Shown here in pieces: positions 4,981 through 24,811 of a stretch of 64,000 nt of DNA. Under the pieces are notes generated by a model. That model did not search any database. It saw only the letters and a program-made list of their open reading frames with translations, and was not told the DNA's origin. The position numbers and the translations under genes were made by a program. Source of the stretch: Neolewinella aurantiaca (GTDB lineage: Bacteria > Bacteroidota > Bacteroidia > Chitinophagales > Saprospiraceae); contig NZ_VOXD01000001.1 in assembly GCF_008014675.1 (NCBI RefSeq), positions 124,001-188,000 of the forward strand, in the 5' to 3' direction. Each line of letters begins with the position of its first letter. Within the stretch, counting starts at the first letter, position 1.

Positions 4981-5143
4981 GAAAGTGAGTGACTTTCTGA
5001 TTGTACTACGTCTTAAAACTGTATCCGGAGGAGAAATCAAATGTTATCCCCCGGAAAACAAGATATGTTTTTCATGATATGAATATGGGTTTTAGGTGTT
5101 TTTCTAGGAGGGTCCGGACTTAAGTCCGGACCTTCTGTTTTTT
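4981..5143 (+). ncRNA. Candidate structured RNA, copy A
   Basis: Not a known family to me. In order: hairpin GAAAGT/ACTTTC (4981-4997), a box ACTACGTCTTAAAA (5005-5018), a second hairpin CCGG-A-GG/CC-C-CCGG (5025-5054), ACAAGATAT (5058-5066), a 40-base block starting TTTTTCATGATATGAATA, and a 15-bp hairpin followed by a T run (5103-5143), which is an intrinsic terminator. A second copy at 24461-24811 has the same parts in the same order; the block is almost identical and the hairpins differ in sequence but stay paired. No promoter is obvious for this copy, so its 5' end is uncertain. No open frame explains the conservation. Confidence 0.55.
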
Positions 5144-5209
5144 GGTGAGGTGTGGTTTCACGAGACTGCTGTTGCATTTTTGATTTACCTTACCGGAAAC
5201 TGCCTTACC

Positions 5210-6037
5210 ATGTCTCTCCGAGTACCCGCCATTATCATTTTGCTTCTGTCCTTTTTTCAGTGCGCCTCCGATTCGGGAGCGACCGGCCATGAGGCGGGTG
5301 GTAACCCGACTTTCGAGTCCTTTGACGGTCAGCAGATCTCGTACCGGGACGGCGGAGACGGCCCGGCAGTGATGCTTCTCCACGGTTTCATCAACGATGG
5401 TTCCAGTTGGCTGCAGACCCAACTTTATGGCCAGTTGGTAAACAGTGGCTACCGGGTAATTATCCCTGATATGCGGGGCAACGGCTTTTCGGCGAAGCCG
5501 CACACCGACGAAGCCTACGCCAACGACGCGGAAGTAAAAGACCTGATGATACTCGCCGATGAACTCGAACTTGATTCCTACATCGCTATTGGCTACTCGC
5601 GGGGCTCGATCGTTTTGGCAAAACTCCTGACGGAAGATAAGCGGATATCCCGCGCCGTACTTGGAGGAATGGGCGTCGATTTTACCGATCCGGACTGGCC
5701 CCGGCGCAAACAATTTGCCGCAGCTTTTGCCGGAGAAACCACCCCCGAAACCGAAGGTGCCGTCGAATACGCAAAATCAGTCAATGCCGACCTCAAAGCA
5801 CTGCACCTGCTCCAGAAGCACCAGCCGGTCACTTCTTTGGATCAACTGCGAAGCATCGATGTACCGGTATTGGTGGCTGTGGGGAGTTCGGATAAGGACA
5901 ATGGTGACCCCGGAGCGTTGGAGCGGCTGTTTCGCCACGGTAAACTGGCCATGATGCCCGGAGACCACAACAATACCTACAAAACTCCGGTGTTCGCCGC
6001 AGCGGTGATGGCTTTCGTAAAGGCCGGATCCAACTGA
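5210..6037 (+). CDS. Exported alpha/beta hydrolase
   Basis: 275 residues from ATG at 5210. A hydrophobic leader ends at Cys18, so it may be a lipoprotein, although the lipobox (SFFQC) is poor. The body is an alpha/beta hydrolase: oxyanion segment LLHGF, DMRGNGFS after strand 4, nucleophile elbow GYSRGS with Ser130, a late Asp in GSSDKDNGD, and the His in PGDHNN. That is a complete catalytic triad. The substrate cannot be told; esters, lactones or epoxides are all possible. It faces the gene at 6054 tail to tail with a 16-base gap. Confidence 0.85.
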   Translation: MSLRVPAIIILLLSFFQCASDSGATGHEAGGNPTFESFDGQQISYRDGGDGPAVMLLHGFINDGSSWLQTQLYGQLVNSGYRVIIPDMRGNGFSAKPHTDEAYANDAEVKDLMILADELELDSYIAIGYSRGSIVLAKLLTEDKRISRAVLGGMGVDFTDPDWPRRKQFAAAFAGETTPETEGAVEYAKSVNADLKALHLLQKHQPVTSLDQLRSIDVPVLVAVGSSDKDNGDPGALERLFRHGKLAMMPGDHNNTYKTPVFAAAVMAFVKAGSN

Positions 6038-6053
6038 TCGACTCTGTTCGCCC

Positions 6054-6590
6054 TTAGCGGTTCTTGACCACAGAGATTTCCAGAATGTAATCGCCAGAAC
6101 TCAATCCCTGGGCGCCGACGACGCCGATGGTGACGGGGTAGGGCCGGTTCACGGCCCGGAGCTCCACCTCCCGGACGTAGCTTTTGCGCGTCCGGCCAAG
6201 AACGTTGCGCGTCATCCTGAAATCGGCTTCGCAGCTTACGCAACTGTACAGTTCCGGCGGTAACGCACCTCCGCCGCCGGAGTAAGCGTAAAGGCTCAGG
6301 TCGGTGTTTATATCCTTCGGTGTAAGCCGGATGACCATCGTGGAGTACTTAGGGATTTCGGTTCGGTAAAAAACGTTGTTGCCCGAAAAGTGATCAACGC
6401 GCGGCTCTACGAAGCAGGCGTTTTGGGAACTCCAGGCCCAGTTGAGCGACGTAAGCGGGGCTCCGATTTCGAGCTGGCCCTCCCAGGCGAGCGATTTCCC
6501 CTGCTGGGCTTCGAGCAGAATGGGAGTCGCAATTTGAGCACCAACGGTACTACTTAAAAAAGCCAGGATGAAAAAAGTTAGAAAACGCAT
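6054..6590 (-). CDS. Small secreted beta-sandwich protein (PPC-like)
   Basis: 178 residues with a clear signal peptide (MRFLTFFILAFLSSTVGAQ). The mature part is rich in beta strands; the stretch YRTEIPKYSTMVIRLTPKD followed by LSLYAYSGGGG and the closing GDYILEISV resemble pre-peptidase C-terminal (PPC) domains, which often decorate secreted proteins. Two cysteines in SCVSC could form a disulfide. No catalytic motif is visible. A TAACTTTG box lies about 26 bases upstream. The PPC assignment is from strand pattern only. Confidence 0.75.
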   Translation of the reverse strand: MRFLTFFILAFLSSTVGAQIATPILLEAQQGKSLAWEGQLEIGAPLTSLNWAWSSQNACFVEPRVDHFSGNNVFYRTEIPKYSTMVIRLTPKDINTDLSLYAYSGGGGALPPELYSCVSCEADFRMTRNVLGRTRKSYVREVELRAVNRPYPVTIGVVGAQGLSSGDYILEISVVKNR

Positions 6591-6615
6591 AAGGGAATGA
6601 CGGGTTAGTGCAAAG

Positions 6616-6623
6616 CAAAGTTA
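6616..6623 (-). promoter_or_regulatory. -7 box for the secreted PPC-like gene
   Basis: TAACTTTG on the minus strand followed by CTTTGC, a good match to TAnnTTTG, about 26 bases before the ATG. Confidence 0.5.
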
Positions 6624-6682
6624 AGGGTTGCTACTCCGCCGTACCTCCATGAAAACCGGGAGGTTTGCCCCACAAACATAAA

Positions 6683-6709
6683 AGCCCCGCAACCAAAGGT
6701 TGCGGGGCT
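6683..6709 (-). terminator. Intrinsic terminator after trxA
   Basis: A perfect 12-bp stem AGCCCCGCAACC/GGTTGCGGGGCT with an AAA loop. On the minus strand it is followed by TTTT, and it lies 33 bases past the trxA stop. The plus strand also ends in a short T run, so it may work both ways. Confidence 0.85.
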
Positions 6710-6741
6710 CATTTTGTAAGTTTTACAACAGGTGGCTGGGC

Positions 6742-7068
6742 TTACGCCGCTACCAGCTGAGCTTCGAGTTTGTCTACCAGCGTTTGCTTGCTTGGTGCGC
6801 CGACGATAGTGTCTACTACCTCGCCACCCTTCATGATCAGGAGGGTCGGGATAGAGCGGATGCCATACTTCTGGCTGAGTTCTGGGTTGTCATCAACATC
6901 GACTTTGCCGATTTGAGCTTTGCCTTCGTAAGCAGTATGAAGTTCCTCAATGACGGGGCCGATAGCGCGGCAGGGGCCACACCATTGTGCCCAGAAGTCA
7001 ACGAGCGTTACGCCTTCATTATCGAGGACAGTTTCTTTGAAGTTGGAGTCAGTTAACTGAAGAGCCAT
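6742..7068 (-). CDS. trxA: Thioredoxin
   Basis: 108 residues from ATG at 7068 (MALQLTDSNF); the upstream in-frame ATG would add an unlikely leader. It contains the redox site WCGPC (Cys30 and Cys33), DFWAQ before it, the cis-proline loop IRSIPTLLIM and the usual GAPSKQTL end. It is a cytosolic protein-disulfide reductase, kept reduced by thioredoxin reductase. It is a single gene with its own terminator. Length and all core motifs are standard. Confidence 0.97.
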   Translation of the reverse strand: MALQLTDSNFKETVLDNEGVTLVDFWAQWCGPCRAIGPVIEELHTAYEGKAQIGKVDVDDNPELSQKYGIRSIPTLLIMKGGEVVDTIVGAPSKQTLVDKLEAQLVAA

Positions 7069-7163
7069 TATTAATTGGTATTTAGTTTTGTGTAAATCAC
7101 ACATTATTAACAACAACCTTCTTTAGGGATGGTTGAATCTTCTCATCCAAACGAATCGTTCAA

Positions 7164-8279
7164 TTGCCTGCATCCGACGCCACTCCGCCCCAAAGCTCCC
7201 GTTTTCTTCGCCTTTGGCCCGTAGGGCTGCTGGCGATTTTATTGCTTTTGCGTTGGCTTTTGCCCGCGGCAGCCATCGAAAAAGTGTACAGCCGTGGCGT
7301 CTTCGTCGGGGTCCGGAACGTTTGGGACTATACGCTGCCACAGTTGCCGGTACCTCTGTTTTACGTCTTTTGGCTGGGTGTTTTGGTGTGGATTGTCCGT
7401 ACCGGGGTCCTTTTTTGGCGCGCACGCAGGATGCAGGGGGGGGTGAAAAAGCAGTGGAAGCAGTTCGGTCTCCGGCTGCTGAATTCTGTTGCGTTGCTGG
7501 TGTCGGTTTTCCTTCTGGCCTGGGGGTTCAACTACGGCAGGGTAGAGGTGAACGACAAAATAGGCTTCGAAATGTACCAGCCCATCCTCGATGAATTGCG
7601 GCAGCGCGTTTACACCGAAGCGGCCGGGCTGGCCGATTGGCGGCAACGCATCACCTCCGACACGACCGCTCTTGGCCCGGAGCATTTCATCGAGCCGGAA
7701 GACGCGGTGAGGCACCTGGTCCGCCGGGCACTCACCTATCATGGGTACCCCGACCCGGGCCGGCCCCGTCTGCGTCAGCTTCGCCCCAGGGGCATCCTGC
7801 TGAAATGGAGCACCGCTGGCGTTTACTGGCCCTGGGCGGGCGAGGGCAACATAGACGCAGGCCTGCATCCGCTGCAGAAATATCCCGTCGGCGCTCACGA
7901 ACTGGCCCACGCGTATGGCTTTGGTGACGAAGGAACATGCACCTTCTGGGCCTGGCTCGCAGGGCAGGAAACCAAAGACCCGGTTGCCGCCTATGCATTC
8001 AAACTGGACTACTGGCGGCGCATTGCGGGGAAACTCCGGCAGCAGGAACCGCAGGCTTACTGGGAGTGGCGCGCTGCAAACCTCGACGCCGGCGTTCGGA
8101 ACGACCTGCAGGCCATCTACGACAACTCCGAACTATACAAAGACATCGCGCCCGTCATCCGGGATGCTGCCTACGATACCTACCTGAAAGCCCAGGGCAT
8201 CCACGAAGGATTGCTCAATTACGGCAAGGTCATTCAAATGGTGGAAGGCTACCGGAAATGGGAGAGAACTGGTCTTTAA
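7164..8279 (+). CDS. DUF3810 family membrane metalloprotease-like protein
   Basis: 371 residues. Three N-terminal membrane spans are followed by a soluble domain with HELAHAYGFGDE, an HExxH zinc-protease motif whose later Glu fits the gluzincin pattern. This is the arrangement of DUF3810, a family common in Bacteroidota; no substrate is established. The only start in reach is TTG at 7164; the first ATG would remove two membrane spans. A copy of the dispersed motif (7417-7435) lies inside the gene and encodes RARRMQ in the cytosolic loop after the second span. Family call firm, activity inferred. Confidence 0.85.
   Translation: MPASDATPPQSSRFLRLWPVGLLAILLLLRWLLPAAAIEKVYSRGVFVGVRNVWDYTLPQLPVPLFYVFWLGVLVWIVRTGVLFWRARRMQGGVKKQWKQFGLRLLNSVALLVSVFLLAWGFNYGRVEVNDKIGFEMYQPILDELRQRVYTEAAGLADWRQRITSDTTALGPEHFIEPEDAVRHLVRRALTYHGYPDPGRPRLRQLRPRGILLKWSTAGVYWPWAGEGNIDAGLHPLQKYPVGAHELAHAYGFGDEGTCTFWAWLAGQETKDPVAAYAFKLDYWRRIAGKLRQQEPQAYWEWRAANLDAGVRNDLQAIYDNSELYKDIAPVIRDAAYDTYLKAQGIHEGLLNYGKVIQMVEGYRKWERTGL
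7417..7435 (-). repeat. Dispersed motif inside the DUF3810 gene
   Basis: GGCGCGCACGCAGGATGCA, the GCATCC variant read on the coding strand; it encodes RARRMQ between membrane spans. Confidence 0.75.
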
Positions 8280-8390
8280 CTGTGCCTCTCAACCATCCCA
8301 CAGTTGTCGCGGCTTCAGCCGCTGACTCGTTGATGCAGGGCTTTCGATCAACGGTCTCCTGCCAGAGAGAAGCCGTGCCTTCAACCGTTC

Positions 8391-8410
8391 TTTGCACCGG
8401 CGGCCGCGCC
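8391..8410 (+). repeat. Dispersed motif (extended form)
   Basis: TTTGCACCGGCGGCCGCGCC. It belongs to a 38-base block (8375-8412) that recurs at 10791-10828 with three differences. Confidence 0.8.
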
Positions 8411-8440
8411 CTGAATGGTTAAAGGCTTAATATTCAATAA

Positions 8441-8548
8441 TGTGCATCGGGCGCAAACCAGATCGTCGCTCAACCCCCTCCCGGCCTCCCCACACCGCTG
8501 CGCTGGGGAGGAGCAATCGCGAAGATCTGGTTTGCGCCCATGTGCATC
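8441..8548. mobile_element. 92-bp MITE with 8-bp target duplication
   Basis: The 8-base direct repeat TGTGCATC (8441-8448 and 8541-8548) flanks inverted ends GGGCGCAAACCAGATC and GATCTGGTTTGCGCCC, with a CCTCCCC/GGGGAGG interior. No coding capacity. The perfect duplication suggests a fairly recent insertion by a transposase not encoded here. Confidence 0.72.
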
Positions 8549-8635
8549 CGAGCCAGTACATTAAGCCACGCTTACTATGGCGATGTAACAAAAAAATTGT
8601 GCTGAAAAAAGGGGAAGAGGTGGGCTGGAAATTCT

Positions 8636-8643
8636 TAACTTTG
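8636..8643 (+). promoter_or_regulatory. -7 box of the M48 peptidase gene
   Basis: TAACTTTG, 39 bases before the ATG; matches TAnnTTTG. Confidence 0.45.
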
Positions 8644-8682
8644 AGCTGAACCTACACCGTTTCATATTAACACCTGATAATA

Positions 8683-10680
8683 ATGCGTTTTACCCTATTT
8701 TTAGTTTACAGCTGCCTTTGTTGTGGCCTGTTCGCTCAGTCTAAAGTTGATTTTGGCAGGGTTGATGACAACCAACTGAACGATCGCCTGAAGGTTTCGG
8801 CCGAAGAACTTACCCAGTACATTCTCGACGATATTCCTGCGGAATACATGGACCAGATGACCGATAGGGCTGCGTACCGTTTTGCGGACCAAATGGCCAG
8901 GTCTTCCATCGATGTTCTCTCCGGCGGGCGGGTGTATAATGGCTGGGATGAAATGGACGAGTATGTCAATGGTGTACTACAGAGGGTGATTCCGGAAGAG
9001 CTTCGGGCCAAGAAGTTCGTCCGGGCTTACGTCATCAAAGATGGTTCGCCGAACGCGTTCATGATGCCATCCGGTATTTTCTGTATCAACATCGGGATGA
9101 TCGCCGAGATTGAATCGGAGGCGAATCTGGCCGGGATCATCGGCCACGAATTGGCACATTACGAGCTGCGCCACGGACTTGAGCGTTACGTGAAATCTGA
9201 AAATGATGAATTCAAGGGCGGTATCCTCTTCAACAGCCGTAAAGCAATCAGCGCTTTTTCGGTCGACAACGAACTCGATGCCGACTCCCAGGCTGCCGAG
9301 CACCTGCGCCGCGCGGGGTATGGCCTGAACGGGCTGGCGGAGACTTTTGCGGTGTTTAAACGCCAGGAAGACCGGGCACTTCTCACGATGGAGGATGTTT
9401 GGGAGATCAAGGAAACAACCCACCCGAGCTCGGGCCGGCGTATTGAGCGCATCCACGAAATGATGGCTGCAGAAGAAGAATCTGCTGCGGCAGATCCTGG
9501 CTCTTCTGCCGTTTTCGAAAAGCTTCGGGAAGAAGCCCGTGCTGAAGTACTGAAATATCTTCTGGCCGGTTTCAACTATCAAAGTTGCCTGGAAAAAGCT
9601 TTCCGCTTTCACTTATTCGAGCCCAACAATCCTACTTATGTTTATTACGCCATGGAAGCTATCCGCAGGAGCTGCTACCTGGACGTGACGATGTGGAACA
9701 AAAAGTTCCTGGCTCACAACTACTTCGACGTAGTGGAGACAAAGAGCGGAGGGCACAAAAAAGTAAAGATCGAAGGAAACTTTTTCGACCGGTTCCGGCC
9801 GGGGATTCTGTCGATGGATTCCAACAGTTACAGCCAGGTGATGGCGAAATTCTACTGGGATAGCCCAAAATTCACGACCAACGAAGAAGCGTATCAGTTT
9901 TTCTATAAAGTTGGTAAAGCGCTGAAAGAGCCCGAGTGTACGCTGTCTAACGCTCTGAGCCTGTCTTTCAATCCTGAACTAAGGAATAAGTTTTTGGAGG
10001 AATATCTTGCCTTTGAAGACATCAGGTACCGGAATTTCGCCGAAGCCTTGTTGAATGATGGAATATACGAAGCGCTTCCGAAAAGAAAGCTGACGATTTT
10101 CCACAGGCTGATGCCTGTTATCAAGCACGGAGTAGATGACATTGCCGTTTGGCACGAAGGAGACGAACAACCTTTACGGTCGGCTATGGAAAAGGCCGCC
10201 ACGTCTTTTGAAGACCGGGATTTCCTTTATTTGCCCGAGCTCAAGAAAACGAACATCAACGATTACCTCACTTTTTCTGAATTAGAGGGCTTTTCCTTCC
10301 AGCCGCTATTGGCGCGGGGAGAAAAGACTGAACTCCACATTCTTGACCCTGCCTTCTGGGAAGTGATGAAACGTTACGGGACCAACCGGATGGAATTCGT
10401 CAACTGTATTTATAACGACAAGGCTAAAGGTGCTTTCACGCTCGAGGTGTACAAACAGGTAAGTGATTATACCATCGATGATGTTTTGAATCGTGACGAT
10501 GAAAAAGGGCGTTACGTGAAGATGTATATGTCTGGCCTTCAAATCCTTGAAGATGGTCCGCTGAAGCTTCGTGCTTACGATGGTACCGACCGCATGGGAG
10601 CTAGAGGCAGAGGCTACGATCTGTTAGCGGAGGTACTGACAGAGAAACTGAAGTCGCTGGATAAGTCTTTGACTGACTGA
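8683..10680 (+). CDS. Secreted M48 family metalloprotease with large C-terminal domain
   Basis: 665 residues. A signal peptide (about 1-19) is followed by an M48 (Ste24/BepA-like) peptidase core: NAFMMPSGIFCINIGMI, zinc site HELAHYE (His155, Glu156, His159) and NELDAD with the third ligand Glu197. Residues 280-665 are a separate domain with no motif I recognise; it keeps a helical first part and a mixed second part. M48 proteins of this kind act in the periplasm on misassembled envelope proteins, but they are usually 250-500 residues, so the extra domain is the unusual part. Single gene with its own promoter box. Confidence 0.88.
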   Translation: MRFTLFLVYSCLCCGLFAQSKVDFGRVDDNQLNDRLKVSAEELTQYILDDIPAEYMDQMTDRAAYRFADQMARSSIDVLSGGRVYNGWDEMDEYVNGVLQRVIPEELRAKKFVRAYVIKDGSPNAFMMPSGIFCINIGMIAEIESEANLAGIIGHELAHYELRHGLERYVKSENDEFKGGILFNSRKAISAFSVDNELDADSQAAEHLRRAGYGLNGLAETFAVFKRQEDRALLTMEDVWEIKETTHPSSGRRIERIHEMMAAEEESAAADPGSSAVFEKLREEARAEVLKYLLAGFNYQSCLEKAFRFHLFEPNNPTYVYYAMEAIRRSCYLDVTMWNKKFLAHNYFDVVETKSGGHKKVKIEGNFFDRFRPGILSMDSNSYSQVMAKFYWDSPKFTTNEEAYQFFYKVGKALKEPECTLSNALSLSFNPELRNKFLEEYLAFEDIRYRNFAEALLNDGIYEALPKRKLTIFHRLMPVIKHGVDDIAVWHEGDEQPLRSAMEKAATSFEDRDFLYLPELKKTNINDYLTFSELEGFSFQPLLARGEKTELHILDPAFWEVMKRYGTNRMEFVNCIYNDKAKGAFTLEVYKQVSDYTIDDVLNRDDEKGRYVKMYMSGLQILEDGPLKLRAYDGTDRMGARGRGYDLLAEVLTEKLKSLDKSLTD

Positions 10681-10806
10681 TCGCCCCGATCTTTTCTGCC
10701 GGTTTGGATATCTGTTTAAAGTAACCTCTGCAGCCCCGATGAACCCGGTGATGTAAAGGAGGTTCCGGCCTTACCGTACGGAGAACAATTGTGCCTTCAA
10801 ACGTTC

Positions 10807-10826
10807 CTTGCACCAGCGGCCGCGCC
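10807..10826 (+). repeat. Dispersed motif (extended form)
   Basis: CTTGCACCAGCGGCCGCGCC, immediately beyond the stop codon of the membrane-protein gene 10827-11459; part of the 38-base block shared with 8375-8412. Confidence 0.8.
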
Positions 10827-11459
10827 CTATATCCCGAAGTGGTCCGTTATTCCGGTGTTTTTTGCCGGGATCGCCCTGATGACACGAGGCTGCAACCACC
10901 AGATACCAAGAGGAAAAAGCAGGATCATTACCGAAGCGAGCAGCCATCTCATAAAACCGGGCTTTTTTTCGAGCCCGGCGGTAAGAGCTACTGCGGCCGC
11001 TAATGGAGCAAGTACCAACCCGCTGAGAATGAGTGCCAGTAACTGGTCGGGGGTAATGACTGTGCGCACAGAACGAAGCAGTTCGCGCGCGTTGCCGGTC
11101 GATGCGATGTTCGCCGCCCTTAATATATTATCAATGCTGATGATGAGAAGAAAGCTGCACTGGATGATGTTGACGCCAGCAATGAGGAGTAGCAGGATCT
11201 TCAGGCCCTGCCTGTTGGATGCTTTTCGGATAACAGCAAATTGCCAACTGGCAATTGCCAGTAGCGAGAGGGAAACCAGCAACGGCACTGCTTCATCGTA
11301 AGGAACTGACCGAGGTGAAAAAGTGATGAACGAAAACTGGTCCATAAACATCAGGAAGATGAGCAGGTAAGCCGGAGTGGCCAGGCAAAAGAGGACGGCA
11401 GCCGGTATTCTGGTGAAAAAAGACACGAGGTGGATTTTAGTTAGGATGGAAAAATACAC
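10827..11459 (-). CDS. Polytopic membrane protein, intact paralogue of the split gene
   Basis: 210 residues with five predicted membrane spans. The end, LFPLGIWWLQPRVIRAI, matches the end of the broken gene at 370-1159, and the whole length and span pattern agree with that gene once repaired. I do not recognise the family, and nothing in the sequence points to an activity. The gene stands alone between the M48 gene and the helicase. The dispersed motif abuts its stop codon, as it nearly does for the broken paralogue. Confidence 0.75.
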   Translation of the reverse strand: MYFSILTKIHLVSFFTRIPAAVLFCLATPAYLLIFLMFMDQFSFITFSPRSVPYDEAVPLLVSLSLLAIASWQFAVIRKASNRQGLKILLLLIAGVNIIQCSFLLIISIDNILRAANIASTGNARELLRSVRTVITPDQLLALILSGLVLAPLAAAVALTAGLEKKPGFMRWLLASVMILLFPLGIWWLQPRVIRAIPAKNTGITDHFGI

Positions 11460-11571
11460 ATAACCGTAGCCTGCCAGGTAGGAATCTTAAGCCAATAGCC
11501 GAGGATTGTTGAGGTCCGTTTCTTGTAATGTGAGGCTGCTTCCACAGTCTTGTTGTGCATTTGATAGAACA

Positions 11572-11704
11572 CCCGATTCAGGGTGTATCACGAGATGCAC
11601 TACTATCACGAACTTTCCGCTTGTCACGTCTCCCCTCTCCCGAGGAGAGGGGCCGGGGGAGAGGGGGATCCGTGCATCTCGTGATATACACCCCGATTCA
11701 GGGT
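11572..11704. mobile_element. Hairpin element flanked by 13-bp direct repeats
   Basis: CCCGATTCAGGGT occurs at 11572-11584 and 11692-11704. Inside are inverted ends GTGTATCACGAGATGCAC (11583-11600) and GTGCATCTCGTGATATACAC (11672-11691), and a core CTCCCCTCTCC/GGAGAGGGG. No coding capacity. It looks like a miniature inserted sequence, though a 13-base duplication is longer than usual. Confidence 0.55.
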
Positions 11705-11730
11705 AAAGCTGATACATAAATAAAAAAGCG

Positions 11731-11738
11731 TACCTTTG
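11731..11738 (+). promoter_or_regulatory. -7 box of the DEAD-box helicase gene
   Basis: TACCTTTG followed by CA, a strong match to TAnnTTTG. The -33 region is A-rich and unclear. Confidence 0.55.
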
Positions 11739-11903
11739 CACCCTCAAACAGGGCATCTCCCGGTTTACAAGGTCTGATTCCGCTCATCGATGAATCCGTT
11801 GTGGTAAACCAATTCGCCCGCTAATCAAGGTTTCGATACGCCTCCGTGTGACTATAATGGAGATCGCCGGCGTTCAATCACGGGACCACAAAACAAGGAC
11901 GAA

Positions 11904-13589
11904 TTGGAAACTTATCAGGACAGCGCCCTGCGCGATGACGTCAAAAAAGCCGTTGCAGAACTCGGCTTCATCAAACCCACCCCCGTACAGGCAGCCGCCA
12001 TTCCGGTAATCATGGAATCAGATCGCGACCTCGTTGCGCTCGCCCGCACCGGTACCGGTAAAACTGCAGGCTTCGGCCTCCCCGTCGTTAACGACATCGA
12101 CACCGACATCAATGCCGTCCAGGCGCTGATTCTGTGTCCTACCCGCGAACTTTGCCTTCAGATCGCCAAGGACCTCGCTGCTTTCAGCCGGTTCCGCAAG
12201 GGTGTGAACGTTGTGGCGGTTTACGGTGGTGCACCGATTACGCACCAGATCAAAGACATCAAGGCCGGCGCTCAGATTGTCGTTGGAACCCCCGGTCGTA
12301 CGCTGGACCTCATCAACCGCAAGAAACTTAAGGTCGGGCAACTGAAGCGCGTTGTTCTCGACGAGGCCGATGAGATGCTGAACATGGGTTTCCAGGAAGA
12401 ACTCAATTCCATCCTGGGAGCAACCCCCGAAGAAAAGCAAACCCTGCTTTTCAGTGCAACCATGCCAAAGGAAGCCAAAAAGATTTCTCAGGACTACATG
12501 ACCGACCCTGCCGAAATCAGCGTTGGTCACTCCGATGCGGGTAATTCGAACATCGTTCACCAGTACTACAAAGTACGCGCCTCCGACCGTTTCTCGTTAC
12601 TGCGTCTGCTCATCGAGCTGGACCCCGATATGTACGCCGTAATCTTTTGCCGCACCCGCCGCGAGGTGAACGGTGTTGCCGAAGACCTTCGCTTTGCCGG
12701 CCACGCCGCTGATGCCCTGCACGGTGACATGAGCCAGGCCCAGCGCGACGACGTGATGCGCCGCTTCCGTAAAGGACGCATCAAACTGCTCGTTGCCACC
12801 GACGTGGCTGCCCGCGGTCTCGATGTATCCGATCTCACCCACGTGATCAACTACAACCTGCCTGATGCCCCGGAAGTGTACGTTCACCGCTCAGGCCGTA
12901 CCGGCCGTGCCGGTAAGGAAGGTACCGCCCTCAGCATCGTAACCGGTAAAGAAGTGCGGAAGGTTCGTGACATCGAGCGTTACTCTAAGATCAAGTTCGA
13001 GATCAAGGAAGTGCCTAAGCAGGATGATGTGTACAAGATTCGGGCACTGCGTTTTGCCGACAAAGTCAAAAATGCCAAGCTGGACGATAAAGTGGCCGCA
13101 TTCCTGCCCGAAGTCATTGAAACCTTCGACGGTATGGAGCGCGAAGAACTGATTCAGAAAATCCTCGGCTACGGCCTCGGTAACCTGAGCAAGCAGCTCA
13201 GTGGCCAGAAGCCAATCCGGGAAGCTAAAGATGATGATCGGCCCGATAAGAAAGGACGCAACATCGACTATACCACCATCACGATGGCTGCCGGACGGAA
13301 TAAAGGCTACAACGTGCCTCAGATCATCGGGATGATCAACCGCATGGTTCCGGGTAAGAAAATTGCCTTCGGAAAGATCGATATCCAGAATAATATGACC
13401 TACGTTGGCGTAGACAGCAAAGAGGCCAAAAAGGTCGTTGCCGCTATGGAAGGTGCTGTAGACAAGGGCACCGAACTGAACGTTCGTATGTTTGAGGGCG
13501 GAACCAAAGTTGACGGTCCGCGCGACTTCGCGCCCCGTAAACGTAAACCCTTCAAACCAGGAGGTTTCAAAAAGAAGAAGAAATGGTAG
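11904..13589 (+). CDS. DEAD-box RNA helicase (CsdA/DbpA type)
   Basis: 561 residues from TTG. All helicase motifs are present: Q motif (GFIKPTPVQ), ARTGTGKT (motif I), PTRELCLQI, GTPGR, DEAD in VLDEADEML, SAT, then ATDVAARGLDV and HRSGRTGRAG in the second RecA domain. Residues 455-530 form a DbpA-type RNA-binding domain (RNKGYNVPQIIGMINRM), and the C-terminus is a basic Gly/Lys tail ending FKKKKKW. Such proteins unwind structured RNA in ribosome assembly or mRNA turnover. The nearest ATG upstream is out of frame, so TTG is the best start. Confidence 0.94.
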   Translation: METYQDSALRDDVKKAVAELGFIKPTPVQAAAIPVIMESDRDLVALARTGTGKTAGFGLPVVNDIDTDINAVQALILCPTRELCLQIAKDLAAFSRFRKGVNVVAVYGGAPITHQIKDIKAGAQIVVGTPGRTLDLINRKKLKVGQLKRVVLDEADEMLNMGFQEELNSILGATPEEKQTLLFSATMPKEAKKISQDYMTDPAEISVGHSDAGNSNIVHQYYKVRASDRFSLLRLLIELDPDMYAVIFCRTRREVNGVAEDLRFAGHAADALHGDMSQAQRDDVMRRFRKGRIKLLVATDVAARGLDVSDLTHVINYNLPDAPEVYVHRSGRTGRAGKEGTALSIVTGKEVRKVRDIERYSKIKFEIKEVPKQDDVYKIRALRFADKVKNAKLDDKVAAFLPEVIETFDGMEREELIQKILGYGLGNLSKQLSGQKPIREAKDDDRPDKKGRNIDYTTITMAAGRNKGYNVPQIIGMINRMVPGKKIAFGKIDIQNNMTYVGVDSKEAKKVVAAMEGAVDKGTELNVRMFEGGTKVDGPRDFAPRKRKPFKPGGFKKKKKW

Positions 13590-16555: not shown

Positions 16556-16582
16556 GGGTAGACGCACTTATCCTTAACCCGC

Positions 16583-16601
16583 TTTGCACCTGCGGCCGCG
16601 C
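16583..16601 (+). repeat. Dispersed motif at the 5' edge of the XRE gene
   Basis: TTTGCACCTGCGGCCGCGC, followed by ATAA and then the TTG that opens the XRE frame. Confidence 0.8.
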
Positions 16602-16605
16602 ATAA

Positions 16606-17361: not shown

Positions 17362-17368
17362 CTTTTCC

Positions 17369-18211
17369 CTATTTGAACTTCCTTATCGGAAGAGTAGCCT
17401 GGACTCCTTGATTATTATATATATAAACTCTTCCACCCCCCTTTCCGAAAACGTACCGCACTTGATTTCCCGCGTTACTAACATCTCTTCTAGAAGGGGG
17501 CTGACGATACGGTGTTATAGTAGTTGTTCCTGTTGTTGAACCACTACCCATTCCGTCAGAAGGTGTAGAACTACTACTTGTTCCGCTTGGATGAGAATGG
17601 AATCTAGTCTTGTCTCCGGGAGTATAACCATCAAAAGTAGCTCCTTCCTGAGGAGTGGTAACCGGTCCAGGTTCTCCTGGAACGACACTACCATCTGGCA
17701 TCACACTCCCTCCGTACTCACGATTATTCTCCGGTGACGTACCGCCATTTCCATTATCACCACTTACGGCATCAACCATTGCACCACGAGTAGCTTCACC
17801 TCCTTCAACTTCAGTTATATCATTATAAATATCGCTACCCTCAAAGGCAGCAGCATTACCAGAGTTGGCTTTGACAAATTTCTTAATTTCTTTTGCCCTT
17901 GCCTTACTTAATCCAGCACCCGGCACTCCGTTGAAGTCAGATGTCTGGGTATTTACGACATATACTTTGCCGTCATCTTTACCATCACTTCCTACCTTAC
18001 CATCGCTTCCTAGCACTTTCCCATTTTCATCTTTTATAATTCCACTTACACTTCTCCCATCAGGATCAATAAAGCTTATTGGGTTGCCTAGAACATAATT
18101 GTACGGGCTATAAGGGGCATAACTGCTAGCCAGTGGGTCTATTGAAGTCCATCTCGCCACTGCCGGATCGTAATATCTAGCACCATAGTCATACAGCCCG
18201 ATGTCCTCCAT
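17369..18211 (-). CDS. Orphan RHS C-terminal module with JAB-like toxin tip
   Basis: The first 55 residues are the end of an RHS core (GLYDYGARYYDP, RWTSIDPLA, YNYVLGNPISFIDPDGR). The same frame continues upstream without a start and encodes YRFNGKEL, also core sequence, so the large N-terminal shell is missing. After DPDGR comes a variable tip of about 220 residues; its centre has TRFHSHPSGT with Asp further on in SD, the HxH...D pattern of JAB/MPN metalloprotease-like toxin domains. RHS proteins are usually over 1,000 residues. The module starts within a few bases of the stop of the barrel-protein gene, suggesting that recombination dropped a spare tip here. Confidence 0.75.
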   Translation of the reverse strand: MEDIGLYDYGARYYDPAVARWTSIDPLASSYAPYSPYNYVLGNPISFIDPDGRSVSGIIKDENGKVLGSDGKVGSDGKDDGKVYVVNTQTSDFNGVPGAGLSKARAKEIKKFVKANSGNAAAFEGSDIYNDITEVEGGEATRGAMVDAVSGDNGNGGTSPENNREYGGSVMPDGSVVPGEPGPVTTPQEGATFDGYTPGDKTRFHSHPSGTSSSSTPSDGMGSGSTTGTTTITPYRQPPSRRDVSNAGNQVRYVFGKGGGRVYIYNNQGVQATLPIRKFK

Positions 18212-18258
18212 CAGCTCCTTCCCATTAAACCGATAGCAATATTCCCCCTCCCACCAAA

Positions 18259-19896
18259 TTAGAACTTAGCCGATATTCCAACCAGCAGGTTCAGTCCAAT
18301 GGTTGGGTACTGCACGAACCGCTCGCGGTTGTTGCCCAAGAGGTTGTTTACCCGCAGCCACGCACTGAAGTTTTCACTGAAACCATATTCACCGTTCAGG
18401 TTTAAGTCAACGAGTGCAGAGAGTGTCTGTGCCTCTCCGGCTGCATCTTGGTACGGAAGACCGTTTTCGATGAAGAGGTCTGCTCCGAGGGTGACGTTTT
18501 GCTTTTCCAATTTGTACGCGGCACCACCGTTGAGGCTGAAGCTAGGCAGGTGCCATGCCTTCTCCTGATTGTCGAGGCTGTAAAATCGTTGCGCGATGGA
18601 TGCGTTGACCTGCAGGTTTTCCATTGGCTCCATCGTGCCGGAGGCCTGGAGGGTGAAGATGCTTCCGTCGTCGTAAGTAACCATAAACTGAGGGATGGCC
18701 TGGGTGCGGTCAAGCTGAAAGGTAGCCAGGTTGTCCAGGTTTTTGTAACTGGCTTCAGCCCGGTAGGATATTCCGGAAAAAGTACCTTCAACTCCACCGT
18801 AAAAACGGGTGTACTCTGAAGTGCGTACGCGCAACCGGGGGCGAACCCAGGGGTTGTAATCACTCAGGCTCCGCAGCGTGTTTTTCTGCAGACTTCCCTC
18901 AGCTCCGACGAAGGCGGAGAGCAGGCCGTCGATAATGGGAGCGTTCAGGCTAATGTCCGGGAAAACGTCGAAATCATCGTCCTGGCTGGTCAGGTTCACC
19001 CCTATCTTCAGGCGGTAACGCCCGGCAATTGCTGTTGTATAGCTTGGGCTCAGGTAGATGTTGTTTAGCTTCTGGTTGCTGGTGTCTTTATAGGTTGTAA
19101 AATCTGCCCGGAGCTTAATATCCAGTGGCTGCTTATCGGAGATCCACTTTGTAGCCTGTACGTTGAGGTCGATATTAGATTCACGTACTGCCGGGTCACC
19201 ATCCATCAGGTAGAGAGAGACGCCTGCTTTGTAGTCAAAATCGGCAGCCGTCCGTACACCATTGAAGATGTTGGCGTTGATGTCGACAATATTAAAACGC
19301 TGGCGAACCTGGTCGTCCGTAAAGCTTGGTGTAGAGTCCGTTTCGATTTCGGGGAAGTTGTATCCATAGTAATACCGGCTCTGCGAAGTGAAATCAGCTC
19401 CGCCGCTTACAGCGAAGCCCTGATCGAACAGATAAGTACCGCCTACGCCGAATTTGGTGTCGCTCGATTTCTGGTTTTCTACTTTACCGTTATTGTTGAA
19501 ACTGTGATGATTGGCGTAGATGCCCAGTTCGGCGTTGTCTACGGTGCTGAGATCGTAGCTTAGGTCACCGTAAAGTGCGCCGGGGAGGCCGACGCCAATA
19601 CCGATGTAACCATTTTTGCCAGGCTCGGCTTTGTCGCGGGAAACACCACGCGGACGGATAACCGGCGCGGGGTAATCAATCGCAATCGGGCGGTCAACCA
19701 CGTAGTACTGCTGCTGACGGCGGCTGGTGTCGGCCGCTGGCTTTACGCCTACTACGCGGACGCGGTTAGCGTCAGACAGGCGGGCCTCGAAATTAGAAAC
19801 AACCGTTACCTCATTATCGTCGAGATCAGTTTGAGCAAAAAAGGTAGTGGTGGCGGTTAAGAACAGTCCGCAAAGAAGAAGGTATTTGGAAAACAT
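18259..19896 (-). CDS. Outer-membrane beta-barrel protein (TonB-receptor-like, no plug)
   Basis: 545 residues. Signal peptide to about residue 21, a short Pro-rich segment, then alternating strands from about residue 95 to a C-terminal Phe (NLLVGISAKF), as expected for an outer-membrane barrel. Strand content and the NNLLGNNRERF closing motif resemble TonB-dependent receptors, but there is no plug domain or carboxypeptidase-like domain. It follows the large TPR gene by 95 bases on the same strand, so the two probably form a unit in the envelope. Function unknown. Confidence 0.8.
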   Translation of the reverse strand: MFSKYLLLCGLFLTATTTFFAQTDLDDNEVTVVSNFEARLSDANRVRVVGVKPAADTSRRQQQYYVVDRPIAIDYPAPVIRPRGVSRDKAEPGKNGYIGIGVGLPGALYGDLSYDLSTVDNAELGIYANHHSFNNNGKVENQKSSDTKFGVGGTYLFDQGFAVSGGADFTSQSRYYYGYNFPEIETDSTPSFTDDQVRQRFNIVDINANIFNGVRTAADFDYKAGVSLYLMDGDPAVRESNIDLNVQATKWISDKQPLDIKLRADFTTYKDTSNQKLNNIYLSPSYTTAIAGRYRLKIGVNLTSQDDDFDVFPDISLNAPIIDGLLSAFVGAEGSLQKNTLRSLSDYNPWVRPRLRVRTSEYTRFYGGVEGTFSGISYRAEASYKNLDNLATFQLDRTQAIPQFMVTYDDGSIFTLQASGTMEPMENLQVNASIAQRFYSLDNQEKAWHLPSFSLNGGAAYKLEKQNVTLGADLFIENGLPYQDAAGEAQTLSALVDLNLNGEYGFSENFSAWLRVNNLLGNNRERFVQYPTIGLNLLVGISAKF

Positions 19897-19991
19897 AAGT
19901 TTGGATAATCTTAAAAGTTAGAAACTAGGGAGCGAAAAACCAGGAAGACAAAATCAGGGGCTGAGTTTTTATTCCTACGGTTCAGTCAGTT

Positions 19992-22900
19992 CTACTTCCC
20001 TCCTCCATTGTCAATTTCAAAACGGTTAGGATCGACCGGGGTGTTGTTGATCCGGCTGCTGGCAGCGATCAGGTTTCGGACTACGGTCAGTCGCTGTTGT
20101 GCTTCGGCAACTATTGTGGCATCGCCGTTATAGTTCTCCAGTAGTGCTTCCAGGGCGGCTTCCGAGTTGTAGAGGTTGTCTCCTCCCTGATCTTTCAGGG
20201 CGTCGGATAGCACAAGCACTGTCTTCGCAACCCAGTAGGGATAACCGGAACTTTCGCGGTTAGCCTCCAGGGCAAGATCTACCGCTTTAGTCAGTTCGTT
20301 GTTGAGGTAAGCAATATTGGCACGCAGATAGCGGGCTTCGGCGGTACGCTCGTCGTCGGAGTTTTCGATAACCTGATTGAGGGCGGGCAGTGCCGTCCGG
20401 TAATCGCGGCGGTCGTAGGCGATTTTTGCGATGTAAAAGTTGGCGATCAGACGCTGGGTAGCGGAGGCACCACTGTTGTTGGCCACCTTGGCGGCATAGT
20501 CCTCCACACTACGCTGATCGTTTAACTGGTATGCAGACTGCATAGCTCCTACCTGGGCGTCGATCCGGATGTCTTCCGAAGGAGCGGCACCTTCAAGGGC
20601 CTGGAAGAGGCGGAACGATCGGTTGTAATCCTTTACGTGGCGGTAGGCGATGAGGCTGCCTTTGTTCAGGGCTGGCAGGTAGTAGCCGCTGGGACCGGAG
20701 GTTGCAACTTTTTCAAAATCGGCCAGGGCTTCGCTGTACCGTTGCGCAGCAACGTAACTGTCGCCGCGGAAATAAGTGGCGGCAAGCGCATTCGGGGTGT
20801 TGGGGTACTGACGAAGGTAGTCGGTCAGGGCCGATACTGCTCTGTCATAGTTACCATTCTCGTACTGAGAGCGGGCCGCCTGGAAAGTGATCGCCTCGCG
20901 ACCATCGGCGTTAACTTCCTGCCCGGGAAGGGTTTCGAAGAACTCGAAGAACAGGTCTGGGCGGCCCATCTTGTCGACGTAGATTTCACGAAGGTTCTCT
21001 TTGGCCCGCTCCGACTCTTCAGCGGTAGGGTTGTTGCTAAAGACCTGTTTGTAGTAGTTTATCGCAGCTTCCTGGTTGCCGAGGTTGAAGCTGATCAGGC
21101 CCAGGTTCAGTAAGCTCTGGTTCACGAGGGGAGAGCTCTGTTTGTAATTACTCACAATGCTCCGCAAAGGCGCCAGGGCTTCCTGAGGACGGTTGAGTTG
21201 CTGATATGCTTCAGCTAACTCGAAAAGCGCATCGTCGGCGTATTCACTGTTGGGGTACTGGCTCACCAACTGCTCGAGGTTGAGCACTTTATTGGCCGTA
21301 CGGCCTCTCAGGCCTTCGATGACTGCTTTTTGGTAAAGCGCGTAAACAAAACCAGAGCTCTGGCGCTGAACAGCATTGTCGTAGTAGCGAGCTGCCTGAT
21401 CGTACTGGTTACGGCTAAAGTGCGCGTCTCCGGCCCGCAGTACAGCATCGCCGAGTACACGTTCACGCACGTCGGCGTCGGTGATGTAAGGGAGGTTACG
21501 CTCAATGCCTTCCACGGCTGCCTTAAAGTAATCCAGTGAAGCAGCAGGGTTTTTCTGTTTGAGGTAGTTGTAGCCCTGCAGGTAGTTGCCGGTGTAGAGG
21601 CTGCTCTGCGGGGGAAGGTCCTGAATGCCACGGGCGAGGGTCAGGAACTGGTTGGTAAGGTTGATCGAAGTAGGGTAGTCTTCCTGGCGGTTGGCGAGGT
21701 CGGCCAGCCAGTACAGGGCCTGGGCCCGTAAAACCGGGCTCACCGGGCGCTGAAGACTTTTTTCGAAAAGGGTCTTTGCACCTGCGTCATCGCCGTTATT
21801 GAGTAGTTCCAGACCACGACTGAAGGCTGCCCGTTGGTAAGATTCCTCGAGCCGGGGGCTGCGGTTGGGTAAGCGTTCCAGCAGTGCCAGCGTACGCTCG
21901 TAATCTTCGGTGGTGGCGAACACGTCGCCGAGTAACTCCTGGCCCTGCAGGTAGTACTGGCTGCTGGGATCGATGCTCTGGATCGCCGTTATGGCATCCG
22001 CCGGGTAGTTGAGTTCGTAGCTCAGTTTAGCGTAGTTGAAAAGGGCTTCCTGCTGGATCGCCGGGTCGAAATTGAGACGCGAAGCAGTACCAAACGCCAG
22101 GCGGGCCGCGTCACCGTTGCGCCGGTTCAGCTCCACGTTGCCAAGGTAGTAGCTGGCCGATTGCCCCACCAGACTGTTCTGAGCCGCAAGCTCGCGGAAA
22201 GTCTTTCCGGCAGCCTCGAAATCGTTGAGTTTGTACTGCGTAAAACCGAGTTGGTAGAGTTGCTCCTCTTCCAGTTTGCGATTGTTGCGGGCAAATTCTT
22301 CGAGCAGAGGACGCGCACGTGCGTAATCTCCTTTTTCAAAATAAGCCTGGCCAAGCAGCTGGCTCATTTCTTTGCTGTTTTTGATGCGTGGGTTCGAGCC
22401 CAGAATCGGTGCAGCGTAGGCGATCAACTCATCGAAGCGGCGCTGCGCAAAGAAGATCTGCGTGAGGTAGTAAGGAATGTAATCGTCGTACTTAGGTGAT
22501 TTTTCCGCAATCTTGAACTGGCCCACGGCAGCATCGTAGTTACCTTCAAAGAAGTAAATTATACCGAGGTAGTAGTTGGTGGGGTAGTAGAATTCACCCT
22601 GGTTGCTTTTGCTGAACTGAAAGTAGCGCTTAGCGGCGGGGAACTTTTTGTTCACAAAGTTGACGTACCCGAGCCGGAAATTCAACTCCGCCCGTTGCTC
22701 GGTGGTGAGCAGTTCGGCGGGTACCCGGTTGTAGTAGTCGAGCGCTTTATCGAGCTGGTTGTCGTTGAAATAGTAGTTGGCAATTTCCAGCAGTGCCTCG
22801 TTCGCAACGGGGTCGGGCTGGTAGCGCCGCACAAAATCAAGGATGAGTTTCTCGCCCTCCACTTTACCGAGACGAACTGCAATTTTGGCCTGCATCAGTT

Positions 22901-23150
22901 CGGCTTTCTGGCGCAGTAGCAGTGCCTCCGGCTGTTGCAGGGGTAAAACCATTTCAATCACTTCGCCGTACTCGCGCTGGGCCTTGGCCAGGAGGTTGTC
23001 CTGAAAATCAGCTTCCGCCTTCTTATACGTGCGCCAGGCATCGGTATATATGGTGGTGGCCTGACCGCTTACCTGAGCGACAAAACCAATAAGAAAAAGA
23101 GCGGACAAAAGGAGCGGAAGCCGGCGTGCCGGTTGGAAAATCTTATGCAT
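19992..23150 (-). CDS. Large secreted tetratricopeptide-repeat protein
   Basis: 1,052 residues from ATG at 23150 (MHKIFQPARR), which gives a clean signal peptide; the ATG further upstream would bury it. The rest is built almost wholly of TPR-like helical pairs (for example AELNFRLGYVNFVNKKFPAAKRYF and DDALFELAEAYQQLNRPQEAL in parts). Such proteins are scaffolds in the periplasm or on the outer membrane. The neighbour downstream is a barrel protein, so a barrel-accessory role is plausible. A partial copy of the dispersed motif (21775-21794) falls inside it. Confidence 0.85.
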   Translation of the reverse strand: MHKIFQPARRLPLLLSALFLIGFVAQVSGQATTIYTDAWRTYKKAEADFQDNLLAKAQREYGEVIEMVLPLQQPEALLLRQKAELMQAKIAVRLGKVEGEKLILDFVRRYQPDPVANEALLEIANYYFNDNQLDKALDYYNRVPAELLTTEQRAELNFRLGYVNFVNKKFPAAKRYFQFSKSNQGEFYYPTNYYLGIIYFFEGNYDAAVGQFKIAEKSPKYDDYIPYYLTQIFFAQRRFDELIAYAAPILGSNPRIKNSKEMSQLLGQAYFEKGDYARARPLLEEFARNNRKLEEEQLYQLGFTQYKLNDFEAAGKTFRELAAQNSLVGQSASYYLGNVELNRRNGDAARLAFGTASRLNFDPAIQQEALFNYAKLSYELNYPADAITAIQSIDPSSQYYLQGQELLGDVFATTEDYERTLALLERLPNRSPRLEESYQRAAFSRGLELLNNGDDAGAKTLFEKSLQRPVSPVLRAQALYWLADLANRQEDYPTSINLTNQFLTLARGIQDLPPQSSLYTGNYLQGYNYLKQKNPAASLDYFKAAVEGIERNLPYITDADVRERVLGDAVLRAGDAHFSRNQYDQAARYYDNAVQRQSSGFVYALYQKAVIEGLRGRTANKVLNLEQLVSQYPNSEYADDALFELAEAYQQLNRPQEALAPLRSIVSNYKQSSPLVNQSLLNLGLISFNLGNQEAAINYYKQVFSNNPTAEESERAKENLREIYVDKMGRPDLFFEFFETLPGQEVNADGREAITFQAARSQYENGNYDRAVSALTDYLRQYPNTPNALAATYFRGDSYVAAQRYSEALADFEKVATSGPSGYYLPALNKGSLIAYRHVKDYNRSFRLFQALEGAAPSEDIRIDAQVGAMQSAYQLNDQRSVEDYAAKVANNSGASATQRLIANFYIAKIAYDRRDYRTALPALNQVIENSDDERTAEARYLRANIAYLNNELTKAVDLALEANRESSGYPYWVAKTVLVLSDALKDQGGDNLYNSEAALEALLENYNGDATIVAEAQQRLTVVRNLIAASSRINNTPVDPNRFEIDNGGGK

Positions 23151-23381
23151 GGTGGGTATTCGAATAAAAAAATCAGGCAAGTCGCTTTTCAAAAGTCGAC
23201 TTTCCGGAGGCAAGATAACGGTTGATCCGCTAACGACCAGAATGGGTTGGTTTAGTACACACCCTGTCCTCAATCGTTAAAATTGAGGCAAATGTTCAGT
23301 TTTTTATCGAAATGAGTGAACTGTGTATCGACAATAGATGTATATACATTGAATTTAACGAACGAGAGTTCATCATTTTGA

Positions 23382-23399
23382 GGCGCGGACGCAGGTGCA
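23382..23399 (-). repeat. Dispersed motif upstream of the YceI gene
   Basis: GGCGCGGACGCAGGTGCA, about 105 bases before the yceI-like start, in the gap between divergent genes. Confidence 0.78.
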
Positions 23400-23504
23400 G
23401 CGCGTGTTTTCCGGGGAGGCCGTTAGCGGCCTTAATCTTCGGTTGTACCGTCCATCGGGTCATAGCTGCCTCAGTTCATTTCAACGATCAAAATTATTTA
23501 AACC

Positions 23505-24080
23505 ATGATCAAAGCATTTCTTCTTTTCAGTACCCTGATTTTCGCTACCGCTGTAACGCTGAACGTAGCCGTCGACACCTCTGCAAGTCAGGTAACCTGG
23601 AAGGGGTACAAAGTAACCGGTAGCCACGAGGGCACAGTTTCGCTTAAAGAGGGAAGCCTCGATTTTACCGACGGTGTTCTTACCGGAGGGGCTTTCACCA
23701 TCGATATGGCTTCGCTCAAAGCCACCGATATCACCGGAGAATCCGCCGCCAATCTGGAGGGCCACCTCAAAAGCGATGATTTCTTCGGTACCGAGAGCTT
23801 TCCCGTTGCCTCCTTCACGATTACTAAGGTAGTAAGCCGCGGTAGCGTTGGCGATTACCGCGTAACCGGAGACCTGACCATCAAGGGAACCACCAAGACG
23901 ATTCGCTTCAACACCAAGGTGACCGAAGAAATGGGCAAATACACCGCAAAAGCAGACCTGACCATCGATCGTACCGATTTCGGGGTACGCTACGGCTCAG
24001 GTTCTTTCATCGACAACCTTGGTGATAAGACGATCTACGACGAATTCGAACTCGGCATCGTACTGGTGACCAAAAAGTAA
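23505..24080 (+). CDS. YceI-like periplasmic protein
   Basis: 191 residues with a signal peptide. The body is the YceI lipocalin-like barrel: VDTSASQVTWKGYKVTGSHEG, GAFTIDMASLKATD, HLKSDDFFGTESFPVASFTIT, GDLTIKGTTKTI and a final FELGIVL. YceI proteins bind polyisoprenoids or similar lipids; a catalytic role is not known. Single gene, followed by a strong hairpin at 24184. Confidence 0.93.
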   Translation: MIKAFLLFSTLIFATAVTLNVAVDTSASQVTWKGYKVTGSHEGTVSLKEGSLDFTDGVLTGGAFTIDMASLKATDITGESAANLEGHLKSDDFFGTESFPVASFTITKVVSRGSVGDYRVTGDLTIKGTTKTIRFNTKVTEEMGKYTAKADLTIDRTDFGVRYGSGSFIDNLGDKTIYDEFELGIVLVTKK

Positions 24081-24446
24081 GAATTTCTTAACCGCTTACG
24101 TTTGGCTTATCCAGTAATCTGATTGCTTTCCCCGAAGGGCGGTCAGAATGATTAGCCTTCTGTTCCAGCGCTTAAGACTATATCGACCGCGTCCGGATAA
24201 CCACACAGGGTTGTCCGGACGCGGTCGTTATACATTAGCGGGGATCAAATGAGAGGTTAAATACCTGAATCCAGAACAACTTTTATTTTCGTACGTTAAC
24301 TGGAACATAAAACAGGCTACTCGCCGATAACCTTATCGGTACTTGTTACTACACAAATCAATGAAATCACTGATTTGAATATTCACGGGAGTGTCTGTTT
24401 TCGTCTTTTTGGTGGATAGGTCTTTTACAATTTCCAACCAAATTGC
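24081..24446. other. Non-coding stretch after the YceI gene
   Basis: No gene seen. It contains the terminator at 24184-24227 and then AT-rich sequence leading to the promoter of the candidate RNA. Confidence 0.6.
24184..24227 (+). terminator. Strong hairpin after the YceI gene
   Basis: CGACCGCGTCCGGA pairs perfectly with TCCGGACGCGGTCG, extended by ACC/GGT near the loop. It is about 100 bases past the stop; no long T run follows, so it may act as a terminator or as an mRNA 3' end stabiliser. Confidence 0.6.
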
Positions 24447-24454
24447 TACTTTTG
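24447..24454 (+). promoter_or_regulatory. Promoter of the candidate RNA, copy B
   Basis: TACTTTTG fits TAnnTTTG, in an AT-rich setting with no start codon for a gene downstream. Transcript start expected near 24461. Confidence 0.45.
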
Positions 24455-24460
24455 CAGTTC

Positions 24461-24811
24461 CTTAGCAAACGTTAATCTCGGGACGCGAAAGGATGTTGCA
24501 AAAACTAAATGTGTAACTCGCTCGTTAACTGATTGTAACGTGCTTGTTAATTTATAGTTTGCGCGTCATAAATCGGGCTCAGGAAGTAAGATTCCGCTCA
24601 CATTTATGAACAAACAGTCGCTCTTCGCGACTTTTAATGTTACTAAATTGAATTACTTACGTCTGAAAAATGTCTATTAGTGGAAAAGTTTTTTTGATGA
24701 AAACTTTCTATCACTCTAAGGGACAAGACATTAGGTTTTTCATGATATGAATATGGGTTTTAGGTGTTTTTCTAGGAGGGTTCGGACTAAGTCCGGATCC
24801 TCTTTTTTTTG
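24461..24811 (+). ncRNA. Candidate structured RNA, copy B
   Basis: About 350 bases between a promoter box and a terminator, with no convincing open frame. The 3' part repeats copy A in order: hairpin AGTCGC/GCGACT (24616-24632), ACTTACGTCTGAAAA (24655-24669), a long hairpin AGTGGAAAAGTTTT/AAAACTTTCTATCACT (24679-24715), ACAAGACAT (24723-24731), the shared 40-base block (24734-24774) and a 13-bp terminator stem with a T8 run. Against copy A the block is nearly identical, while stems change on both sides or to G-U pairs. The 5' part (24461-24600) is unique to this copy and holds a 17-base near-repeat. It is none of tmRNA, RNase P RNA, SRP RNA or an evident 6S RNA. Confidence 0.55.

Follow-up and report, generated by a model that had tools for sequence, protein, structure and literature searches.

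The window analysed here, a 64,000-nucleotide stretch of the Neolewinella aurantiaca genome (contig NZ_VOXD01000001.1, positions 124,001 to 188,000), contains two copies, A and B, of what is probably an undescribed small-RNA (sRNA) gene family of Lewinella-type bacteria. Both copies lie on the forward strand and share, by sequence comparison, an identical block of 37 bases, located at 5068-5104 in copy A and at 24736-24772 in copy B. The block includes the core GGGTTTTAGGTGTTT, the putative seed (5087-5101 and 24755-24769). Behind the block each copy has a hairpin and a T run, recognized by covariation and folding as a rho-independent terminator at 5107-5143 in copy A (hairpin 5107-5136, T run 5138-5143) and a terminator at 24774-24810 in copy B (hairpin 24774-24804, T run 24803-24810). 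The hairpin sequences differ between the copies, and the pairing is kept. A putative promoter precedes each block, with spacing that is fixed across the family. In copy A (4989-5012) it is comprised of a -35 element GTGAC (4989-4993), a 15-nt spacer and a -10 element CGTC (5009-5012), and in copy B (24639-24663) of GTTAC (24639-24643), a 16-nt spacer and CGTC (24660-24663). With the start placed about 6-9 nt after the -10 element and the end at the T run, RNA A would span 5018-5143 and, with its start likewise predicted, RNA B would span 24670-24811, which probably makes them about 126 and 142 nt long.

The terminator is established by its covariation. In ten aligned sequences, 8 of the 12 pairs are changed on both sides and 99.2% of the cells are paired; 500 shuffles gave no pairing score as high, and sliding the alignment gave none as good. 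The first paired base is found 0-14 nt behind GGGTTTTAGGTG in all 113 members, and therefore the core directly precedes the terminator. When loci were matched allowing up to 2 mismatches, GGGTTTTAGGTGTTT was kept in 34 of 35 copies. The 5' parts differ between copies, in which the block and terminator are kept. In the centroid fold the core is unpaired in copy A and partly paired in copy B.

A sequence-only reading of this DNA had proposed a paralogous RNA family with two copies, and the common block together with the covarying terminator and T run bears this out. The proposal would have been refuted had there been no further homologues with covariation. Such homologues were found: besides the changes in 8 of 12 terminator pairs, a 173-base query gave matches in 24 of the 60 genomes searched, including all 21 of the genus (N. 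aurantiaca itself included), and the exact 15-base core is present in 21 of 61 family genomes. Besides A and B, the N. aurantiaca genome carries one further copy at C21:41059-41103 and a more divergent one at C29; in all, three copies belong to class I and one to a second class described below. The reach beyond the family sample was taken from a scan of genome contigs for the exact 18-mer TATGGGTTTTAGGTGTTT, which gave 91 stretches. Among the 80 of them listed, 54 are titled Saprospiraceae, Lewinella, Neolewinella, Lewinellaceae, Phaeodactylibacter or Flavilitoribacter, 3 Chitinophagales, 8 unspecified Bacteroidetes, Bacteroidota, Bacteroidia or 'bacterium', and 15 belong to other groups. Twelve of these 15 have no terminator, two are flagged with one and one is unscored, so that the 15 are probably chance matches. 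Tandem arrays occur: Flavilitoribacter nigricans (L068) has six cores, L109 has four, and L053, L092, L105 and L078 have three each. All six units of L068 have the promoter, block and terminator.

The proposed absence from known RNA families also stands, as no family of Rfam 15 reaches its gathering cut-off within the window. On six related loci, the only match above cut-off was a neighbouring tRNA (L256), and 12 weak Rfam matches were all under their cut-offs. No such RNA family was found in published work (open-licence PMC articles), and this is the sole support for the word 'undescribed'. To our knowledge, few Bacteroidota sRNAs have been characterised outside Bacteroides and Flavobacterium.

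The promoter architecture was examined upstream of 122 core matches, 101 of which have a clear terminator. Within 300 bases upstream of the core, GTKAC-N-CGTC occurs with a spacing of 15 in 33 cases and 16 in 31; elsewhere in the range 8-25 it was found once at 23, twice at 24 and otherwise not at all, in a tally that omits matches too near the locus end or with identical 100-base surroundings, and in which one promoter of a tandem array may be counted for several copies. L068 enters this tally with five units, its sixth having identical surroundings. Promoters of extracytoplasmic function (ECF) sigma factors typically have CGTC at -10, and GTKAC-N15/16-CGTC is, judged by its sequence and spacing, the ECF-type promoter of the family.

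The position of this promoter changes the picture of the 5' region. The first hairpin that had been assigned to the RNA overlaps the -35 element at 4989-4993 in copy A (4981-4997), and in copy B (24616-24632) its end is 6 bases short of the -35 element at 24639-24643; in neither copy is it part of the likely RNA. It lies upstream of the likely start in both copies, and therefore the 'pairing kept' between GAAAGT and AGTCGC compares non-corresponding DNA. Similarly, 'ACGTCT-n-AAAA', taken for a box of the RNA, is the -10 element plus the start region. The second hairpin folds in each of copies A and B, as claimed, and is not common to the whole family: the units of L068 have only about 35 nt between the -10 element and the block. 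The promoter TACTTTTG, which had been given to copy B, is not a family feature either, as 8 of 35 copies have TAnnTTTG in the 450 bases upstream of them, at distances that vary widely. A 350-nt RNA B starting from TACTTTTG was rejected because that promoter is not conserved; the 5' end and length once assigned to copy B are likely to be in error, and an RNA B of about 140 nt, made from the ECF-type promoter, is more probable. A second, longer RNA B from TACTTTTG is conceivable.

The core is not confined to RNAs of this type. Among 30 non-class-I sites examined in the genus, 24 proved to be another RNA or like it, comprised of (G)TTAATAGGGTTTTAGGTGTTTATT and a terminator. The idea that 13-mer antisense sites are targets conserved in the genus was abandoned on this ground. 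The class II RNA is found once or twice per genus genome where seen. A small open reading frame (ORF) over ATGAATATGGG was considered and rejected, as by eye the class II core occurs without the ATG. In 9 of 25 family-sample loci, an Hsp20-like ORF (identified by eye) ends 19-176 nt upstream of the class II core, and all three such ORFs scanned gave an HSP20 match. The class II core-terminator cassette stands at most about 105 nt behind Hsp20-like genes in L256, L259, L267, L275, L277, L285 and L293. One class II copy (L281) has an ECF-type promoter. Classes I and II differ in their 5' ends and have the core and terminator in common.

The candidate sigma factor was found through its own promoter. 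The N. aurantiaca genome has 35 sigma-70 region 2 matches, and among 30 loci examined the strict promoter stands in the sense direction before one sigma gene, that of the ECF sigma factor at G000:C13:132116-132709, 54 nt before its ATG. The gene is followed by a small ORF and an apparent MscS channel, so labelled from reading the sequence. Orthologues of this sigma factor are present in 44 of 61 family genomes (45 matches, of which 30 loci were fetched). The motif GTNNC(Y)TT-CGTC, with spacings of 12-14, occurs in 19 of 26 usable 200-base regions upstream of the orthologues; it is found in none of these at spacings of 4-11 or 15-23, and before none of the 29 other sigma genes of N. aurantiaca (260 bases searched). 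By sequence, these findings show a promoter of this type at the sigma gene, and the C13 sigma factor likely drives the sRNA promoters. A looser version of the promoter pattern occurs at 20 places in the genome. Among them are copies A and B, the third copy (C), the gene of the sigma factor itself, an OmpA-family gene, a DUF4783 gene and a PorP/SprF gene of type IX secretion, which the promoter immediately precedes (L520, C24:64707-64731); three of the 20 (L510, L511 and L521) look ORF-internal. Another of the 20 is at L518 (C18:53046 on, about 1501-1760), where an ECF-type promoter is followed by a strong terminator about 220-260 nt on, with no ORF, and this may perhaps be one more ECF-driven sRNA, lacking the seed. 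Within the window, 28306-36084 encodes a 2592-residue protein whose domains are PKD, SprB repeat and the CHU_C domain of type IX secretion.

The complement of the core looks like a target site and the core like an antisense seed. Sites of AACACCTAAAAYC, the 13-mer complement of the core, were classified against ORFs of at least 60 residues (40 where the end of the locus truncates them). In RNA-bearing genomes, the 45 sites examined, all of them judged to be no copies themselves, fall into four groups: 11 stand within 15 nt before an ATG, 8 at 16-80 nt, 13 inside ORFs and 13 elsewhere. In RNA-less genomes, 23 of 28 sites were examined, of which 20 are inside ORFs, 3 elsewhere and none before an ATG. 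Thus, 19 of 45 sites against 0 of 23 lie 0-80 nt before an ATG (p 7e-5). Of 40 sites of the shorter pattern CACCTAAAAC-N2-12-ATG in six RNA-bearing genomes, 23 lie at gene starts, compared to 4 of 40 in 17 RNA-less genomes (p 6e-6). In those six RNA-bearing genomes, a word matched in dinucleotide composition (37 sites, 30 loci fetched, 28 classifiable) stands at gene starts in 4 of 28 cases (p 3e-4). The target-site enrichment in relatives is evident from these counts, and it favours the antisense half of the earlier proposal that the invariant block is an antisense or protein-binding surface; protein binding is kept as a rival below.

Two sites precede one ATG in L247 and L278. Among the genes with 13-mer sites are those encoding CsgF (L327), YdjC (L280), a Gfo/Idh/MocA protein (L247, with its two sites) and an ExsA_N protein (L338). 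By a crude measure, 25 of 40 targets have a hydrophobic N terminus compared to 123 of the 316 ORFs taken as background (p 0.004), in a tally from which L336 and L345 were dropped from the 13-mer targets and to which L184 was added. At L183 (C23:4691-4706), an antisense match is accompanied by a promoter-like box TATATTTG and a terminator-like hairpin downstream (by eye); this is a possible sponge RNA for the seed.

Based on these comparisons, copies A and B are rather probably stress-induced, ECF-driven, trans-acting antisense sRNAs, which block translation at start regions. The C13 ECF sigma factor, whose own gene is under the same promoter, would transcribe both copies, each from GTKAC-N15/16-CGTC to its own terminator. 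The G/U-rich seed GGGUUUUAGGUGUUU, just before the terminator, would pair with a CACCUAAAAC-type sequence just upstream of the start codon and so keep messages, with a bias towards those for exported proteins, from being translated. Further candidate ECF promoters stand before the PorP/SprF and OmpA-family genes. Class II RNAs with the same core would be made from other promoters or would lie just behind hsp20 genes, so that more than one stress may act through the same seed. From sequence comparison we infer that the RNAs are transcribed, that the sigma factor drives them, and that they pair with and repress their targets.

A number of observations weigh against this antisense mechanism. The invariance of the core in loci retrieved with the exact pattern is there by construction. 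The sigma-gene promoters of N. aurantiaca and G017 keep GTGAC and CGTC and are missing CTTT. The sigma factor is present in 19 of 21 genomes with the exact 15-mer and in 25 of 40 without it (p 0.018), so that sigma and RNA are loosely linked in genomes whose kinship makes them not independent. The 20 looser promoter sites compare with 10 for a control, and therefore about half of them may be chance. The 23 of 40 gene-start sites come from six genomes hand-picked from 21, the richest in sites among them, in which 40 of 48 sites were classified (in G021 only 1 of 6). Against the reversed control, CACCTAAAAC-N2-12-ATG shows no raw excess in the 21 RNA-bearing genomes (about 90 compared to about 100 sites); an excess in raw count was given up as an argument, and position alone differs. 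Two sampled genomes of the genus have no such site. The N. aurantiaca genome itself has few 5' sites: one (C50) 20 nt before the ATG of a BlaR1-type M56 peptidase gene, one (C27) 49 nt before a secreted-protein gene whose frame is open upstream, so that the site is possibly coding, and one (C12) with two mismatches. Pfam has no family for 9 of the 17 target proteins scanned, a set to which the 23 gene-start targets do not belong. Finally, pairing alone does not usually call for as many as 15 near-invariant bases.

Of the alternatives, the one that survives best, although it is unlikely, holds that these are real ECF-driven sRNAs whose true targets are elsewhere, the gene-start matches reflecting the composition of untranslated regions or a translation enhancer. 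The empty genus genomes and the missing raw-count excess agree with it; against it are the matched word, which stands at gene starts in 4 of 28 cases in the same six genomes, and the RNA-less relatives, with 4 of 40.

A protein sponge, in which the near-invariant block binds and titrates an RNA-binding protein, e.g. the single RRM_1 protein found in the N. aurantiaca genome, and in which tandem arrays supply more binding sites in the manner of CsrB-like RNAs, would explain the near-invariance over 15 bases and the tandem arrays of 2-6 cores. It does not predict the enrichment of the complement at gene starts in RNA-bearing genomes and is somewhat less probable still, although pairing and protein binding could coexist. 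Much less likely is a cis-acting leader or attenuator, in which the block and terminator control the next gene. The terminator does stand directly behind the conserved block, and the units of L053 and L109 are in tandem without promoters between them; however, the aldolase gene behind copy B is on the opposite strand, the downstream gene in L015 and L018 has its own promoter-like TATCTTTG (by eye), and tandem units can each have a promoter (L068, partly L105 and L062). A mobile or REP-like repeat without RNA function is very improbable: the family is multicopy and partly tandem, and a piece of an IS66 transposase (C-terminal part, 4473-4859) lies directly upstream of copy A, but the stems covary with promoter, block and terminator kept, and the 5' parts differ between copies.

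These results give a promoter class, a candidate sigma factor and a seed with a target list, all testable in cultured marine strains. More broadly, and with somewhat less than even confidence, we suggest that Bacteroidota independently built a sigma-E-like envelope-stress circuit, in which an exchangeable 3' seed-terminator cassette, placed on different promoters or hsp20 ends, would silence messages of exported proteins at their start codons. That would suggest that circuits of the sigma-E/MicA type arose at least twice, in this case around a seed-terminator cassette that can be transferred.

MicA and RybB are sigma-E-dependent sRNAs with the seed at the RNA 5' end. In the family described here, the seed is at the 3' end, a difference that is based on description. 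The enterobacterial system (PMC1804206) is otherwise alike in combining an ECF promoter (here a motif), an sRNA and envelope messages as targets (here predicted). The SM6 ECF promoters of Flavobacterium psychrophilum have a CGT box at -10, which they have in common with the promoters found here; the SM6 regulon includes type IX secretion genes, an ECF sigma factor with its anti-sigma factor and one putative RNA, Rfp11, considered here by its description (PMC9723704). The available text of that study reports no such sRNA family for these promoters.

Another close likeness is to FopS/GibS of Bacteroides thetaiotaomicron, which, in the available parts of PMC11697453, are also multicopy paralogous sRNAs with a single-stranded conserved stretch followed by a terminator, pairing beside start codons (here predicted) and an RRM protein in the genome. 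FopS, which blocks translation at such regions, pairs adjacent to the susC start codon, and a change at position -6 falls in the critical window (PMC11697453). FopS is bound by RbpB; the N. aurantiaca genome has one RRM_1 protein. Start-region sites were found here as well, and no SusC is among the 17 target proteins scanned with Pfam. Two differences stand out in the same source: FopS has a housekeeping promoter (sigma-ABfr) and not an ECF-type GTKAC-N15/16-CGTC, and its seed, compared by description, is at the 5' end and not just before the terminator. The present family thus resembles FopS and the sigma-E-dependent sRNAs and is filed under neither, because it differs from FopS in promoter class and from MicA and RybB in seed position.

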